This document shows positions 46,392 to 52,493 of a stretch of 52,659 nt of DNA, in pieces; the first letter of the stretch is position 1; the number at the start of each line of letters is the position of its first letter. A program made the position numbers and the translations under genes. The notes under the pieces are model-generated. The model saw only the letters and a list, made by a program, of their open reading frames with translations, was not told the DNA's origin and searched no databases. The stretch lies in NCBI GenBank assembly GCA_028820845.1, contig JAPPII010000116.1, positions 1 to 52,659 of the forward strand. The letters run 5' to 3'. This DNA comes from Candidatus Poribacteria bacterium (GTDB lineage: Bacteria; Poribacteria; WGA-4E; WGA-3G).

Positions 46392-47120
46392 CTACAATCG
46401 CTGCTTGATTCTTCCCCAAGTAGTTGTGAGTTTGTCTGAAGCGGAAACCGCTTGAGGTTTGCCAGCCGTTTCGCCCTCACCGTCTCCCATTTCAATGTCA
46501 TCAATATAAGCGGTCAGAGCAGTAGGGTGGTCCCAACCGAAGAAGATCCAACTGAGACTCGGATTCACGCCCCCTTTGCCCCCTTCGCCTCTAAAACCGA
46601 AATCATCAACAACCTGTTCATCATCGACGTAAAAGTCATAAGTTTTATCCTTAAAGTCAAGCACGATGCGGAAATGATGCCATTCTCCCAGTTTTCCCTG
46701 TGTCACCTTTTGTCCTGTGTTGCCATCGAGCGCATTGATAGCACCATCCGGCGAAATATTAAATACGGCAGCACCACCCCATTTGATGGCATCTCCACCG
46801 ATATAGAACAGCATTGTGCCTGCGCCCTTTTCCCGCTGCGTGAATAATGAAGCGTACTGAATTCCATCATGGGTACCTTCAAAACTTCTGACCACCATTG
46901 TGTTTTCTGTGACCAGAATACTTTTGCCTGTATCCCCGCGCTTCACCTCGCTTCCAATTTGGCAAGTTTTTTGATTCATTACTGTTTTCCAGTCATCTTG
47001 CCCAGCGATGTCCCCATCTTTGAAGTTGTCAAAATTTTCACTGTACCACACGTTACAAAACGCATTGACCCCAAAAAACAGGAGTCCGAAACTGAATGCC
47101 AAACTTCGCTTTAACATCAT
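46392..47120 (-). CDS. Secreted LamG/ConA-like protein
   Basis: A 242-residue secreted protein with a signal segment (MMLKRSLAFSFGLLFFGVNAF). The mature part has WYSENFDNFKDGDIAGQDDW and later WHHFRIVLDFKDKTYDFYVD, which is the concanavalin-A/LamG-like jelly-roll pattern seen in carbohydrate-binding or DUF1080-like proteins. No catalytic residues can be named. The first of two adjacent ATGs (47120) has GGAGG six bases upstream. It follows the PSD1 gene upstream in the same direction, with a gap of 127 bases. Confidence 0.7.
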   Translation of the reverse strand: MMLKRSLAFSFGLLFFGVNAFCNVWYSENFDNFKDGDIAGQDDWKTVMNQKTCQIGSEVKRGDTGKSILVTENTMVVRSFEGTHDGIQYASLFTQREKGAGTMLFYIGGDAIKWGGAAVFNISPDGAINALDGNTGQKVTQGKLGEWHHFRIVLDFKDKTYDFYVDDEQVVDDFGFRGEGGKGGVNPSLSWIFFGWDHPTALTAYIDDIEMGDGEGETAGKPQAVSASDKLTTTWGRIKQRL

Positions 47121-47222
47121 AATAAGCCTCCTGAAAGTTTTGTTTTTATACGGCACCATACCACCGACATTATACCGAAATTGCTGACCAAAGTCAACAT
47201 TTTTTCTAAAATTGGATTTTAA

Positions 47223-47269
47223 TTATACTTTAGAGTATAATACTTTAGCGTATAATACTTCAAAATACA
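47223..47269 (+). promoter_or_regulatory. Tandem palindromic operator/promoter of the DUF234-type ATPase gene
   Basis: Three adjacent 15-base units lie 15-60 bases before the ATG: ATACTTTAGAGTATA, ATACTTTAGCGTATA and ATACTTCAAAATACA (47225-47269). The first is the core of a perfect palindrome, TTATACT-TTAG-AGTATAA (47223-47240). Two TATAAT boxes (47236 and 47251) sit inside, so a bound repressor would block transcription directly. Probable autoregulation site (inference). Confidence 0.6.
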
Positions 47270-47283
47270 TTTGAGAGGAACCT

Positions 47284-48699
47284 ATGTTCATCAATCGACA
47301 CCAAGAACTCGCAGCTTTAGATCGAATGTTTCAGTCAGAAACAGCAGAACTTTTCGTGTTATATGGCAGAAGACGGGTCGGAAAGACTGAGCTCTTATTA
47401 CAGTTCTGCAAAGACAAAAGAAGTATCTATTTCCTCGCCAGTCAGTTAAAAGAGCGAGATCACCTCCGTCAACTCACTGAAACCGCAAGGCATGTTATCA
47501 ATGACCCACTGCTCCAAAGCATCATCTTTGATGACTGGGAATCCGCACTCATCTATTTTGCACAACAAGCGGAAGAAGAGCGGCTGGTTTTGGTCCTTGA
47601 TGAGTTTCAATATCTCTGTGAGGATAATGCAGCACTCCCTTCACTGATCCAACGTTTCTGGGATCTACACGGGAAAAATAGTAAACTCTTCTTGATTCTC
47701 TGTGGCTCACAGATAAGTTTCATGGAGCGAGAGGTATTGGCGGAGCGATCACCCTTATACGGACGACGCACCGGTCAGCTTCAGTTAATGCCGTTGTCCT
47801 ATCGCGATAGCGGAGATTTTTTCTCAGCGTATTCTGCCAAAGAAAAACTCACTGCTTACGGCATCCTTGATGGTGTTCCAGCGTATCTTAACCGATTCGC
47901 GTTACATCCGTTGAACAGCTCACAGGATATTCCGCAAGAGGTATTTGAACAACACATCAAAAACGAATTGCTTACGCCGCAAGGCTACCTGTTTGATGAG
48001 GTCAATTTTCTTTTACGCATGGAACTCAGAGAACCGAAAACGTACGCAAGCGTGTTACACGCAATTGCTGGTGGTGCTACGCGATTAAACGAAATTGCGC
48101 AACAAGTTAAACTGAGTTCGACAGATACAAATAAATATCTTAGTGTGCTTCAGGAATTGGCATTAGTCAAACGTGAAACGCCTGTCACTGAACGGGCACC
48201 TCAAAAAAGCAGGAAAGGACTTTACAAAATCTCCGATAATTACGTCAAATTCTGGTTCCGGTTCGTGCTACCCAATCGAAGTCTCATCGAATTTGGGAAT
48301 GCAGATTTGGTATATCAACAGATCATTGCGCCGAACCTTTCACACTATATGGGAGCAATTTTTGAAGATATTTGTCGTCAATATATCAGTCTTTATTGGG
48401 GAGAGACATTGAAAGTCGCTCCCAGACGGGTCGGTGCACACTGGGGATCAAATCTCGAAATTGATGTCCTGACAGAAAATGTTGATGGAAGCCACTGGTT
48501 TGGCGAGTGCAAGTGGTGGGAGGCACCGGTCGGAGAAAATGTCCTGAACTCTCTCATCGAAAATGCCGCAAAAGTCCCTGAGCAGTGGAAGCGTAACCCG
48601 CGATACATCCTATTTTCCGTTAACGGTTTTACGAATGCACTCAGACAGCGAGCGGAGAAAGCAGGTGTATTTCTCATTGAAGCAAACGACCTGTTTTAA
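47284..48699 (+). CDS. AAA ATPase with C-terminal DUF234-type nuclease-like domain
   Basis: A 471-residue protein of the archaeal-type ATPase family. The N-terminus reads FINRHQELAALDRMF, then Walker A YGRRRVGKTELL at about residues 27-38 and Walker B LVLVLDEFQYLCE. A winged-helix-like region near 260-300 follows. The C-terminus (after about residue 360) has EIDVL and then FGECKWW, a PD-(D/E)xK-type layout as in DUF234. Such genes are widespread as lone units in archaea and many bacteria without a settled function. The ATG follows GAGG, and a tandem palindrome lies directly upstream. Confidence 0.85.
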   Translation: MFINRHQELAALDRMFQSETAELFVLYGRRRVGKTELLLQFCKDKRSIYFLASQLKERDHLRQLTETARHVINDPLLQSIIFDDWESALIYFAQQAEEERLVLVLDEFQYLCEDNAALPSLIQRFWDLHGKNSKLFLILCGSQISFMEREVLAERSPLYGRRTGQLQLMPLSYRDSGDFFSAYSAKEKLTAYGILDGVPAYLNRFALHPLNSSQDIPQEVFEQHIKNELLTPQGYLFDEVNFLLRMELREPKTYASVLHAIAGGATRLNEIAQQVKLSSTDTNKYLSVLQELALVKRETPVTERAPQKSRKGLYKISDNYVKFWFRFVLPNRSLIEFGNADLVYQQIIAPNLSHYMGAIFEDICRQYISLYWGETLKVAPRRVGAHWGSNLEIDVLTENVDGSHWFGECKWWEAPVGENVLNSLIENAAKVPEQWKRNPRYILFSVNGFTNALRQRAEKAGVFLIEANDLF

Positions 48700-48749
48700 C
48701 CTGCCTATTACACAAACACATATTTTTTAACAACAAATGGAGAAACGGA

Positions 48750-49217
48750 ATGGCTCAAATTATTACAGGACATCGGATTGGAGAAAACGGCACACTTCGC
48801 GTCGGATGTTCGGCTGTTATTTTTGACGAGCATCGCGAAAAAATTCTGCTAACAAGACGCGAGGATAACAACCAGTGGTGTCTACCGGGTGGGGGGATGG
48901 ATCCGGATGAAAGTGCAAGTGAGGCATGTGTTCGAGAGGTCGAAGAAGAGACGGGTTTGCAGGTCGTCGTAAAACATTTAATTGGCGTTTACACAACCCC
49001 ACACGAATTGATTGTATACCGAGACGGAAATAAAATCCAATTGGTGGCACTATGCTTTGAAGCGGAAATTGTGGGTGGTGAACTCCGGCTGAGTTGCGAA
49101 ACAACCGAATACGGATATTTCTCCTATCAAGAGATACAGGAATCAGATCTGCTTTTGAACCACGTACAACGGATCAAAGATGCCTATAGTGAGAAAATGA
49201 CGACTTTCGTCAGGTGA
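48750..49217 (+). CDS. Nudix hydrolase
   Basis: A 155-residue Nudix enzyme with the complete box G(x5)E...REVEEETGL (PGGGMDPDESASEACV, then REVEEETGLQV). Substrate unknown; proteins of this size often act on nucleotide sugars or modified nucleotides. GGAG precedes the ATG at 48750. It lies 50 bases after the ATPase gene on the same strand, so they may be cotranscribed. Confidence 0.9.
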   Translation: MAQIITGHRIGENGTLRVGCSAVIFDEHREKILLTRREDNNQWCLPGGGMDPDESASEACVREVEEETGLQVVVKHLIGVYTTPHELIVYRDGNKIQLVALCFEAEIVGGELRLSCETTEYGYFSYQEIQESDLLLNHVQRIKDAYSEKMTTFVR

Positions 49218-49520
49218 AGGATCTCTTGCTTGAACGAAATCACCCAAATTTTAGACATTCGTGTAAATACATATAGCGAAATCCAACGATCCAAACGTTG
49301 TGGACGTAAGAAAGTGTTGAGTTCACTTATACGCTTTCAGCCAGCAAATCTTGATTCTGACAATTTAGTACCGCATGCTATTCAAATTAAATAGGACTTA
49401 CGCAATTCCTTTGTGGATGCAGTTTGAAACCACCTCCCACTGCAGGAGAATACGCGGAATTCTGTGGTTTTGCATAAGCCCTGTTAAATTATTAACTTCC
49501 ATCAGTCAAGGTAGTTGACT
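49218..49520. other. Intergenic region with a MITE-like element
   Basis: About 300 bases between the Nudix gene and the end of the convergent secreted-protein gene. Apart from the 90-bp element at 49393-49482 I see no open frame, RNA gene or clear terminator. Confidence 0.6.
49393..49482. mobile_element. MITE-like 90-bp element
   Basis: Ends AGGACTTACGCAA (49393-49405) and TTGCATAAGCCCT (49470-49482) are imperfect terminal inverted repeats (11 of 13 match as complements). Inside is TGCAGT...ACTGCA (49418-49444). There is no coding capacity, as expected for a non-autonomous element. Similar GGACTTACGCA ends are known to me from small elements in other bacteria; the family is not identified here. 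Confidence 0.5.
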
Positions 49521-52493
49521 CTACTTCAAAATGAGCATTCGCCGCGTTGCTGTGAAGTTTCCAGCGGTGAGAGTGTAAAAGTAAAGCCCGCTAGCGACCT
49601 GTTCACCGAACTCATTTTTTCCATCCCAATAGGCGGCGCGGCTGCGACTCTGATACATACCTGCAGGCTGATGTCCCAAGCTTAAGGTCCGAACCACTCG
49701 TCCGTTTGCAGCATAAATGTGCAGTGTGATATCCGCAGGTTTGGACAATTGGTACGGTATCCACGTCTCTGGATTGAACGGATTCGGGTAATTTGCTAAC
49801 AGTGCTGTCTCCTTCGGAGTTAACACTACTAGGAGTTGTTCTAAAAAGAGGGTACCTCTTTGAGACGTTGTATCTATCAAATCTACTTGCTGTACTTGAG
49901 ATAGCCACAGTTTGACATCTGCAGCGGTGAGGGTTGATAGAGATTGAGAAAACAGGGACGGAGCGGCGGCACTTGTGCCTAATACACCAGCGACGAGGAC
50001 AAGGTCCTGAATATTTACAATGCCATCGCTGTTTACATCTGTTTTGTTTTCCCCCGTTTGCCCGAGACTAGATGCGGTCAACACTAAATCTTGGATGTTT
50101 ACAATACCATCACTATTTACATCCTCCTTGAGTCCGGTTGGTTCAGTAATCTGAGCATTTTCAACCTGTGGAACAAAACTGTCTCCTGCCTTGTTGGAGA
50201 GAAGTACGTCAGATAACGTCAAAGTGGATGCCTTCACAGCGATAACCTCAAAGGTAAGTGTGGCGAGTGTACCATCTCCATTGCTTTCTCCAGCGAGAGA
50301 TGCAGCGTTCAGCTTTACAAGATTTCCCTCCACCTTTGGTTGCACAAAGAACCCACCCGCAGGTAGAAATTCACCATTTACCCCTGAGACGAAGCGAAGG
50401 GCAGTTGTATCGAACCGCACAGATGCTTGATAACCTGCGACTGATTCGCCGCCTTCAATGTTCAGATTAAGTGCTAACTGTTCTCCGATGCCAGGAGATA
50501 CAACTGAGGCGGGTAAGATGCTTAGCGTGCTACCGATGGGTGATGTTTCTGGCGTGGTTGAAGGGGGCAAATCCACATTCGTTCCAGTTTTTGGGATCGC
50601 CGTGGTGAAATCCGCAGCAAGTCCGACCCGCATATCCCAATATTCACCATGCTGTCGGACCTTAACCAAAAGGAGATTATTGCCGGGTTTAAGAGTCACG
50701 GAGAAGGAACTCGTTTTGGATTCTTGAACCGCGGGATCTGATCTACATACCTCTGGATCGCAAGCTAGAATAACATTGACCTTCCGGCAACCGAGACTCG
50801 CTGCCGCTTCTCTATGAACCACGTTTCCATTGAGCCAAATTTTGATAGCATCCCCACTCTTCGCCCTCAAAATGACATCTCTTTGTTCACTCGGCGAGAT
50901 GAGGTTAATCAAGGCATACGCTGTCCGCGCACCTGAGTCGAGCCCCATATCCATTCCAAGGGTACTAACGACATTACTGATGTTATTTGCCCAACAGACG
51001 GTCGGGTCAATACACTCGTCCTGTAATAATCCTATGGTTAGGATTTGTAGTAGAGGATTTGGTGTACGCTTCACATTGTATTTATTGCATTGATGTCCTG
51101 GCCAATGAATCTCACTGTTTGTCCATCGCAACTGCCCGACGGAATCCCCTTCGCTTACACCATTTTGGGCAACATGTGCCTCTGTAACTGCCCCACCGCT
51201 TGCATCAGCAAGGGAATCGATCTCTGTGGATATACCCTGTCCAATTTCCGGGCGAGTAGGAACAACCATCCATAGCCAAGGACCTCGGATATAGTCCTGT
51301 TCAGAATCTTCTTCTGGTGTTTCAGGTTGTTTAGATGCTGTGGGTTGTTGGGTGCCACCTGGGTCTCTGCTGGGTTGTTTGGGTGTTTCTGTGCCGGCAG
51401 AAACGGAGATCTGCGCCGTCAGTGCGGGGCCGTCATAGTTAGCAATAGCATCTGCGCTAACAATGAAGGTGAGTGAACTATCGGTGTTGATGTTTCCATC
51501 AAATTCAAGTTCAATTGTAATTTCGGTGTCGCTTTTCCGCTTAGGTTGATGCCAAGGCATCGTCACGCCATTAATGCCGGATACTGTAACGGCATCTCTG
51601 ATGTCAAAGATAGAACTTGCGTAAGTCCGCCCACTGAGTGTCAGTGTGACGACGCTTCCATCTAAGGTGGCTTCTGTTAACGGAACGGGGGTTGCGGTTG
51701 TTACCTCAAGTGTTTCTGTGCCGGCAGAAACGGAGATCTGCGCCGTCAGTGCGGGGCCGTCATAGTTAGCAATAGCATCTGCGCTAACAATGAAGGTGAG
51801 TGAACTATCGGTGTTGATGTTTCCATCAAATTCAAGTTCAATTGTAATTTCGGTGTCGCTTTTCCGCTTAGGTTGATGCCAAGGCATCGTCACGCCATTA
51901 ATGCCGGATACTGTAACGGCATCTCTGATGTCAAAGATAGAACTTGCGTAAGTCCGCCCACTGAGTGTCAGTGTGACGACGCTTCCATCTAAGGTGGCTT
52001 CTGTTAACGGAACAGGGGTTGCGGTTGTTACCTCAATTGGCTCATTCTTAGCGTTTTTGTCTTCGTCTATTTCGTTGTTTTCCTGGCCGAGGTCATTTTG
52101 AGCGTCAGGTGGATCGGGTTGTTCTCCACCTTCGCCGCTAACTGCTTCTATTTCCCAGTTCCCATCAACGCGTTTACTGGCAGCAAAGTTATAAGCCTTA
52201 CCATTGATGTCTGCTTCAAAATTGACTGAATCATTCAGTTTTGCTCCAAACAGCCATTCGAGAAACCAGGGCAATCCTTGGGGCGGATTGCTCATTTGCG
52301 CGGCTCCGTCGTTGTTAACTGAAAATTTAACATCTGTATCAGGGTAGGTGCAACTCTGACCTGGGGACAGCACATCTCCAACTTCACAGACCCCGTTGGG
52401 GGCACCGTAACTCATACCCTGCATCCCAAAACTCATTAAAATACCTATAAACATTAACACAAGACATTTTGACATCAAAATTTGTGTTTCCAT
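49521..52493 (-). CDS. Large secreted multidomain protein (duplicated beta-domain, cohesin-like, dockerin, FlgD-like C-terminus)
   Basis: A 990-residue secreted protein. After a signal peptide and an N-terminal part comes an acidic linker and then two nearly identical 109-residue beta-sandwich domains (about 152-260 and 261-369, DNA period 327 bases). A proline/glutamine-rich linker and a domain with GDAIKIWLNGNVVHREAA (PA14/carbohydrate-module-like) follow, then a cohesin-like domain near 650-790. Two dockerin-like calcium repeats (DVNSDGIVNIQDLV, twice) come next. The last 95 residues (NYPNPFNPETWIPYQL onward, ending in MLILK) are the FlgD/T9SS-type C-terminal sorting domain typical of this lineage. 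GGGAG lies nine bases before the ATG. Probably exported and surface-attached; ligand unknown. Confidence 0.88.
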   Translation of the reverse strand: METQILMSKCLVLMFIGILMSFGMQGMSYGAPNGVCEVGDVLSPGQSCTYPDTDVKFSVNNDGAAQMSNPPQGLPWFLEWLFGAKLNDSVNFEADINGKAYNFAASKRVDGNWEIEAVSGEGGEQPDPPDAQNDLGQENNEIDEDKNAKNEPIEVTTATPVPLTEATLDGSVVTLTLSGRTYASSIFDIRDAVTVSGINGVTMPWHQPKRKSDTEITIELEFDGNINTDSSLTFIVSADAIANYDGPALTAQISVSAGTETLEVTTATPVPLTEATLDGSVVTLTLSGRTYASSIFDIRDAVTVSGINGVTMPWHQPKRKSDTEITIELEFDGNINTDSSLTFIVSADAIANYDGPALTAQISVSAGTETPKQPSRDPGGTQQPTASKQPETPEEDSEQDYIRGPWLWMVVPTRPEIGQGISTEIDSLADASGGAVTEAHVAQNGVSEGDSVGQLRWTNSEIHWPGHQCNKYNVKRTPNPLLQILTIGLLQDECIDPTVCWANNISNVVSTLGMDMGLDSGARTAYALINLISPSEQRDVILRAKSGDAIKIWLNGNVVHREAAASLGCRKVNVILACDPEVCRSDPAVQESKTSSFSVTLKPGNNLLLVKVRQHGEYWDMRVGLAADFTTAIPKTGTNVDLPPSTTPETSPIGSTLSILPASVVSPGIGEQLALNLNIEGGESVAGYQASVRFDTTALRFVSGVNGEFLPAGGFFVQPKVEGNLVKLNAASLAGESNGDGTLATLTFEVIAVKASTLTLSDVLLSNKAGDSFVPQVENAQITEPTGLKEDVNSDGIVNIQDLVLTASSLGQTGENKTDVNSDGIVNIQDLVLVAGVLGTSAAAPSLFSQSLSTLTAADVKLWLSQVQQVDLIDTTSQRGTLFLEQLLVVLTPKETALLANYPNPFNPETWIPYQLSKPADITLHIYAANGRVVRTLSLGHQPAGMYQSRSRAAYWDGKNEFGEQVASGLYFYTLTAGNFTATRRMLILK
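51383..52036. repeat. 327-bp tandem duplication inside the secreted-protein gene
   Basis: Unit 1 is 51383-51709 and unit 2 is 51710-52036. The units appear identical except for one base (AACGGGG against AACAGGG near their ends). The period is 109 codons, so the frame is kept. Confidence 0.92.

Follow-up and report, generated by a model that had tools for sequence, protein, structure and literature searches.

A 15-bp Tandem Array before DUF234 ATPase Genes of Poribacteria and Other Prokaryotes and Its Possible Reading by the ATPase

Introduction

Which protein reads the tandem inverted repeats that lie just upstream of a DUF234 ATPase gene in Poribacteria, and what do they do there? The locus was studied in a stretch of 52,659 nucleotides (hereafter the window) from a poribacterial genome of 5.69 Mb, in which the window protein is the single DUF234 match. 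According to the part of PMC12988326 available to us, proteins with an ATPase fused to a PD-(D/E)XK domain form the PADLOC phage defence candidate PDC-S27, with 3503 counted in Archaea and 4562 in Bacteria, and validation is pending for most such defence candidates. In the literature searched, which left preprints and most subscription papers outside, we found no report of an operator for PDC-S27 or DUF234 ATPases and no trigger or mode of control of PDC-S27 genes. Our preferred reading, to which we give a probability of about two in three, is that the ATPase binds the array in its own promoter and represses itself, with repressor, ATP switch, and nuclease in one chain.

The Locus and Its Array

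The ATPase gene starts with an ATG at 47284 and encodes 471 residues (Table 1). The initial annotation had called it a DUF234-type ATPase, and both domains were recovered above the Pfam cut-offs: ATPase_2 at residues 2–204 (88.5 bits vs. 33.2) and DUF234 at residues 324–413 (72.6 bits vs. 22.5). The PADLOC models of PDC-S27 matched the protein at 1e-49 (residues 2–369) and 3e-28. The gene is flanked by a NUDIX hydrolase gene and by a 255-aa gene in divergent orientation (46392–47159); no pair of a toxin gene and a separate antitoxin gene is present there. A strong promoter-like site, TTGACT-17-TATAAT (11/12; 47169–47197, minus strand), is aimed at the 255-aa gene and away from the array. A 990-aa protein encoded on the minus strand (49521–52493) contains a stretch of ~110 residues twice in tandem, the copies being apparently identical. 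No Rfam match to a structured RNA was found in 46900–49300.

Table 1. Features of the ATPase locus, in window coordinates
Feature	Position	Strand	Basis or remark
Operator unit 1, ATACT-TTAG-AGTAT	47225..47238	none	Sequence; 16-mer without a second exact copy in the genome
Operator unit 2, ATACT-TTAG-CGTAT, 15 bp past unit 1	47240..47253	none	Sequence
Third unit, degenerate (3 mismatches), ATACT-TCAA-AATAC	47255..47268	none	Sequence
TATAAT box, unit 1/unit 2 junction	47236..47241	+	Sequence; putative promoter element
Second TATAAT box, unit 2/unit 3 junction	47251..47256	+	Sequence; putative promoter element
ATPase_2, winged helix, DUF234 protein, PDC-S27 type	47284..48699	+	Pfam, PADLOC, model
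Winged helix, residues 251–316	48034..48231	+	Predicted model
Predicted recognition-helix segment, residues 277–292	48112..48159	+	Identity follows half-site similarity at two of three cut-offs
C-terminal domain, fold of AF1548 and Pyrococcus repair endonuclease	48349..48696	+	Model; putative residue roles
NUDIX hydrolase gene, 50 bp downstream of the ATPase gene	48750..49217	+	Directly behind the array in several ATPase-less relatives

The array occupies 47224–47268, about 15–60 bases 5' of the ATG. Its units recur every 15 bp and are separated by a single A (47239 and 47254), so its even dyads fall within units and its odd dyads on the base between them. This position and the two TATAAT boxes, which straddle the unit junctions, agree with the initial annotation. 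The same annotation had described three adjacent 15-base copies, the first of them a perfect palindrome. Two good units at the 15-bp period were indeed present, but the third is degenerate, and the palindrome has to be corrected: TATACTTTAGAGTATA differs from its own reverse complement at 2 of 16 positions, leaving 7 of 8 pairs. With up to 3 mismatches, this 16-mer has four matches in the window, three of them in the array (two sites, one counted on both strands), whereas 100 shuffles of the window averaged 0.16 and never exceeded 2. When no more than 2 mismatches are allowed, the whole genome contains the array and two isolated single units, and nothing else. A genome-wide regulon was thus rejected, the genome having one tandem array and otherwise isolated single units.

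Conservation in Poribacteria

The ATPase proteins of close Poribacteria relatives are 69–86% identical to that of the window. Full-length matches were found at 33 Poribacteria loci, 29 of which have more than 100 bp of upstream sequence. Two units (up to 3 mismatches) lie within 110 bp at 27 of these 29 loci and within 300 bp at 28; just one unit is present at L050, the last of the 29, and the number of full units per array ranges from one to three. Across the phylum, the two-unit pattern (up to 3 mismatches) was present in 45 of 84 genomes, compared with 1 of 84 for the reversed control pattern. DUF234 occurs in 40 of the 84 genomes, 35 of which also carry the array. Among the five with DUF234 only, two have a single unit (G023 and G027), two end at a contig edge (G025 and G030), and one has a partial gene (G072).

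Contigs of several relatives stop at this place. Those of L038, L045, L048, and L054 end 67 bp or less upstream of the ATPase gene, and in G024 two contigs (C192 and C483; L147) begin inside the array. These ends are probably assembly breaks at tandem palindromes.

Distant Homologues and the 15-bp Lattice

Arrays were sought before other DUF234 ATPase genes, as the initial annotation had proposed, and were found there in several phyla; the refuting outcome named in that annotation, homologous genes lacking the motif, was not obtained. Altogether 256 loci with an N-terminal match were collected, 28 with less than 60 bp upstream were dropped, and the remaining 228 were clustered at 70% identity into 71 representatives. 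The truncated gene of one representative (L107) was counted for its operator but excluded from the protein alignment, which therefore has 70 rows. A four-half-site score of at least 17/20 at period 15 and gap 4 was reached by 44 of the 71 representatives, against a mean of 2.16 and a maximum of 5 in 50 sets of dinucleotide shuffles, and at other periods from 11 to 21 no cell exceeded 11. With a stricter score on 7-mer half-units (at least 24/28), 27 of 71 representatives passed, compared with 8 of 1889 other 135-bp tiles from the same loci, and periods 14 and 16–23 gave 0 or 1 of 71. A+T-matched tiles were available for 56 representatives, of which 23 passed where 0.76 were expected. Scores below 22/28 were obtained for 25 of the 71, most of them GC-rich or among the remotest homologues. 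The strongest evidence that the array is real is this conservation, in the period test and in the phylum search.

The lattice persists while its letters change. Sites like ATACT/AGTAT precede homologues of ~50% identity on a Bacillota contig (L067), in Planctomycetota (L070 and L072, with L071 weaker), and on a plasmid (L180). The last is the closest plasmid homologue, on Rhodothermus marinus pRMAR01, where the annotation lists the ATPase gene directly after csm5, a gene of a type III-A CRISPR system. In Fusobacteriota, rhizobia, some haloarchaea, and a fecal phage contig, the arrays before the homologues have other letters. Among homologues of 34–41% identity the lattice recurs with different letters, namely CTACTCA-TGAGTAG, TAACTCT-AGAGTTA, CAAGTCA-TGACTTG, CAAAACA-TGTTTTG, TTGTAGC-GCTACAA, GTAATCA-GGATTAC, and ATTATCG-CGATAAT. 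Of 11 haloarchaeal loci, those of Natrinema, Halobaculum, Haloarcula, and Haloferax score 21–24 with the ATTATCG-CGATAAT type reaching into the start codon, that of Halorubrum scores 24 and lies further upstream, and that of Halobacterium scores 23. The other five score 19–21 with no clear array. A clear array was absent from Haladaptatus QDMS2, Halarchaeum, H. halobius, and Streptomycetaceae (19–20) and from DL31 and Halorussus (21).

Considering that many arrays contain TATAAT and lie in AT-rich DNA, the 15-bp lattice could be thought a by-product of TATAAT boxes repeated within AT-rich promoters. However, arrays without TATAAT exist (CAAGTCA-TGACTTG and TTGTAGC-GCTACAA), shuffles and A+T-matched tiles rarely score, and none of the 21 upstream regions of DUF4143 ATPase genes from the same bacterial family reaches 24 for a 15-bp array. 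The by-product explanation is contradicted by the shuffle, tile, and DUF4143 controls, and we regard it as scarcely credible.

The DUF4143 genes deserve a remark of their own. They occur in 24 of 56 genomes of the bacterial family (L303–L324, Poribacteria), and 19 of 20 upstream regions have at least one inverted repeat CTACTATATG-N12-13-CATATAGTAG, changes allowed. Most often they are arranged in tandem, about every 32 bp, and enclose TTGACA-like letters; three units are present in L321. DUF4143 ATPases are therefore a poor negative control, being without the 15-bp array but with another one.

Structure of the ATPase

An AlphaFold model of the window protein (mean pLDDT 83.6, pTM 0.68), built after the first covariation scan described below, contains a winged helix; the initial annotation had noted a winged-helix-like region. 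The winged helix is predicted to consist of helices 251–262, 268–275, and 279–291 and of wing strands 295–298 and 313–316, the third helix being residues 279–291. The best fold matches of the ATPase and winged-helix part were two archaeal ATPases, followed by NLR, Orc, and CED-4 proteins. The first, 2QEN of Pyrococcus abyssi, aligns to residues 2–327 (Z 18.9, rmsd 4.4, 298 residues; sequence E 1.9e-6), and the second, 2FNA (SSO1545), to residues 2–326 (Z 16.6, rmsd 4.3, 297 residues; sequence E 9.9e-4); in contrast to the window protein, both are without the C-terminal nuclease-like domain. Orc1/Cdc6 initiators and STAND proteins of the NLR/CED-4 type are fold neighbors at Z of about 10–13.5. 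The winged helix of Orc/Cdc6 binds repeated origin sites. The window gene, however, has no origin or apoptotic context, and a common fold shows no function.

The C-terminal part matches two structures: residues 356–471 align with AF1548, of unknown function (1y88; Z 11.6, rmsd 2.4, 106 residues), and residues 360–470 with a repair endonuclease (2vld; Z 10.9, rmsd 3.1, 106 residues). The window protein has D394, E408, and K410 where the PD-(D/E)XK residues are expected, roles that we infer from position, and 57 of the 70 aligned representatives have (D/E)xK at the place of E408/K410. By its modeled fold and its D...(D/E)xK residues, the domain would belong to the PD-(D/E)XK superfamily and is predicted to be a nuclease. 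In five of five Planctomycetota representatives of 45–52% identity (L070, L071, L072, L270, and L274) the (D/E)xK is missing, yet ATACT/AGTAT-like sites are kept, that of L071 being weaker; the sites of L071 and L274 were seen in the printed sequence, their automatic scores being just 20 and 21. This suggests that the site goes with the DNA-reading part and not with the nuclease.

Loss of the ATPase and Retention of the Array

Ten Poribacteria genomes carry the array pattern only, and nine of them are without a DUF234 match once G079 is set aside, whose match looks like chance (3 mismatches, inside another reading frame). Remnants of the ATPase gene were found in several. G002 retains residues 1–81 and 406–470, G045 a few N-terminal codons and residues 419–471, and G037 its final nine codons, with an intact NUDIX gene after them; G022, in which a DUF234 match is still present, has lost residues 1–202. 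Since the end points differ among these four, at least four independent deletions were counted, each leaving the array behind. An intact NUDIX gene lies directly behind the array in G017, G026, and G040, and a truncated one in G021; G034 has the same order with one unit and hence stands outside the count of 45. Neither an ATPase nor a NUDIX match was found beside the array in G010 and G018. The NUDIX gene was seen retained behind the array after ATPase loss at L137, L138, L139, L141, and L153 of Poribacteria. As a gene tracked by the array, NUDIX was unsupported outside this phylum: L067 and L070–L072 gave no match to the window NUDIX.

Repeated deletion of the ATPase with the array kept fits a costly gene and bears weakly on the selfish or toxin-like regulation suggested in the initial annotation. 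An array without the ATPase could be a relic of recent loss, a promoter that NUDIX still uses, or the site of another reader, for which these genomes make the strongest case.

Could the array instead be a site that the nuclease of a selfish element recognizes or cuts, with regulation secondary? The gene does occur on plasmids (135 of 72,556 records), several contigs break at the array, and among the 27 Poribacteria loci with more than 1.5 kb upstream the usual DUF1553 neighbor is missing in 6. But tandem palindromes are expected to break contigs, and the five Planctomycetota proteins without the nuclease motif keep ATACT/AGTAT-like sites. Moreover, the DUF1553 neighbor is kept at the other 21 of the 27 loci, so the ATPase gene does not look recently mobile in Poribacteria. 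A mobile unit bounded by the repeats was not supported, and a selfish element of this kind is very improbable.

Evidence on the Reader of the Array

Genomes with several copies of the ATPase gene allow the reader to be approached within one cell. In the phylum of the Bacillota contig L067, 15 genomes with at least two copies were collected. In eight of them (G432, G472, G267, G411, G292, G203, G237, and G167), one paralogue has a TAACT..AGTTA array and the other, 39–44% identical, an ATACT- or ATAAT-like one; the second array scores 22 in G203 and 23 in G237. In the remaining multi-copy genomes, the second array is weak or its letters differ otherwise, and the two copies of G360 (95% identical) share an array.

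Half-site similarity was correlated with total protein identity (rho 0.43). We compared it with identity in windows along the protein, controlled for total identity, with permutations across all windows, which leave some shared ancestry in place. The sample comprised 46 representatives at an array cut-off of 22, 34 at 23, and 27 at 24. At 23 and 24, the covariation peaked at residues 283–291, within the segment 277–292, with maxima of 0.311 (family-wise 20/1000 permutations) and 0.370 (34/1000), respectively. When the 32 elements of the model were compared, helix 279–291 came first, at family-wise 11/1000 and 17/1000. Lowering the cut-off to 22 brings in 12 weaker arrays, and the best windows then were 123–132, 239–247, and 407–415 (family-wise 93/1000) and not the recognition helix; helix 279–291 was third of the 32 elements, with 20/1000 on its own. 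An earlier segment test was set aside, its boundaries having been chosen after a first scan that permuted every third window. It had given r = 0.30 and 0.35 at the stricter cut-offs (0/1000) and 0.155 at 22 (21/1000), and rival segments had reached 14/1000 (residues 116–180, cut-off 22) and 16/1000 (residues 41–96, cut-off 23). Overall, there is a moderate indication that the operator letters covary with the predicted recognition helix.

A host regulator encoded elsewhere might read the array instead. This would accord with the nine Poribacteria genomes that keep the array without DUF234, several of them with NUDIX directly behind it, and with a helix covariation that is not robust at the loosest cut-off. 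Against it, the arrays differ between paralogues of one genome, which a shared host regulator would not explain. Similar letters also precede homologues of ~50% identity in three other phyla, and in Poribacteria the tandem is essentially confined to the ATPase locus. We consider a separate regulator quite unlikely. The early suggestion that the ATPase may bind the site itself is supported indirectly: arrays lie before homologues from several phyla, their letters vary along with the protein and between paralogues of one genome, and at two of three cut-offs, the loosest being the exception, these letters track the predicted recognition helix more closely than any other protein window.

Promoter Overlap and Proposed Mechanism

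If the ATPase does bind its array, the effect could be repression or activation. One Poribacteria locus (L058) has TTGACA-17-TATAAT on a unit junction, with the box equivalent to 47236–47241, and a sigma70-like promoter (at least 9/12) with its -10 in or at the array was found in 15 of 33 bacterial representatives. Shuffled DNA upstream of the array, however, gave a mean of 16.0 promoter matches, and 179 of 200 shuffles reached 15. Because shuffled DNA does equally well, promoter overlap was withdrawn as evidence. An overlap no greater than chance would suit an ATPase that activates, or both activates and represses, instead of acting as a simple repressor, and the structure of MalT (8bob) is among the fold neighbors (Z 11.1); MalT-type STAND proteins activate. 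On the other hand, the arrays lie near the gene and reach into the start codon in four haloarchaea. An array close to or entering the start codon is in a place typical of repressors. Based on these positions we favor repression and hold activation to be unlikely.

As a self-repressor, the ATPase would work as follows; we infer binding, repression, cooperativity, trigger, nuclease action, and defense role as parts of the scheme. The winged helix would bind the half-sites of inverted units spaced 15 bp apart, with protomers probably cooperating, and the bound protein would cover the promoter or transcription start and keep the operon low. The array would be released, most likely through an ATPase switch that senses foreign DNA, a nucleotide change, or dilution. 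The freed promoter would give a burst of ATPase-nuclease, whose target would be invading nucleic acid or the cell itself. Half-sites would be particular to each lineage and to each paralogue.

More generally, and with rather less than even confidence, we propose that these single-gene defense candidates of bacteria and archaea are one-component repressor-nucleases. A private array on the 15-bp lattice would silence each gene, loss of grip on it would free the ATPase-nuclease, and helix and operator would diverge together, insulating paralogues from one another in the manner of antitoxins and toxins. In addition, the array may serve as a self-DNA platform that keeps the nuclease in an Orc-like oligomer, from which competing DNA of an invader would draw it. 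The ~32-bp lattice of the DUF4143 ATPases suggests that the rule covers a wider ATPase group.

Relation to Known Systems and Implications

Autoregulation from tandem operators is known. The C-proteins of restriction-modification systems and the autorepressors of toxin–antitoxin systems read tandem inverted sites over their own promoter and keep a nuclease or toxin in check. In those systems the repressor is small and separate, whereas in the window protein the DNA reader, ATPase, and nuclease-like part are proposed to share one chain. What would be new is the union of these three parts in a single chain, together with a lattice common to bacteria and some archaea. With PDC-S27 the window protein shares the ATPase and nuclease-like make-up; it differs in that its gene has an array, while the available part of PMC12988326 does not mention an operator or regulation.

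For each of these genes, thousands of which are counted among defense candidates in the accessible part of PMC12988326, a self-read operator would, if true, supply a known DNA ligand, make a promoter assay possible, and open a way to the inducing signal. The retention of NUDIX without the ATPase raises the question of whether NUDIX matters to the system. Finally, a conserved lattice with changing letters, insulated paralogues included, would be a data set on the co-evolution of winged helices and their operators.
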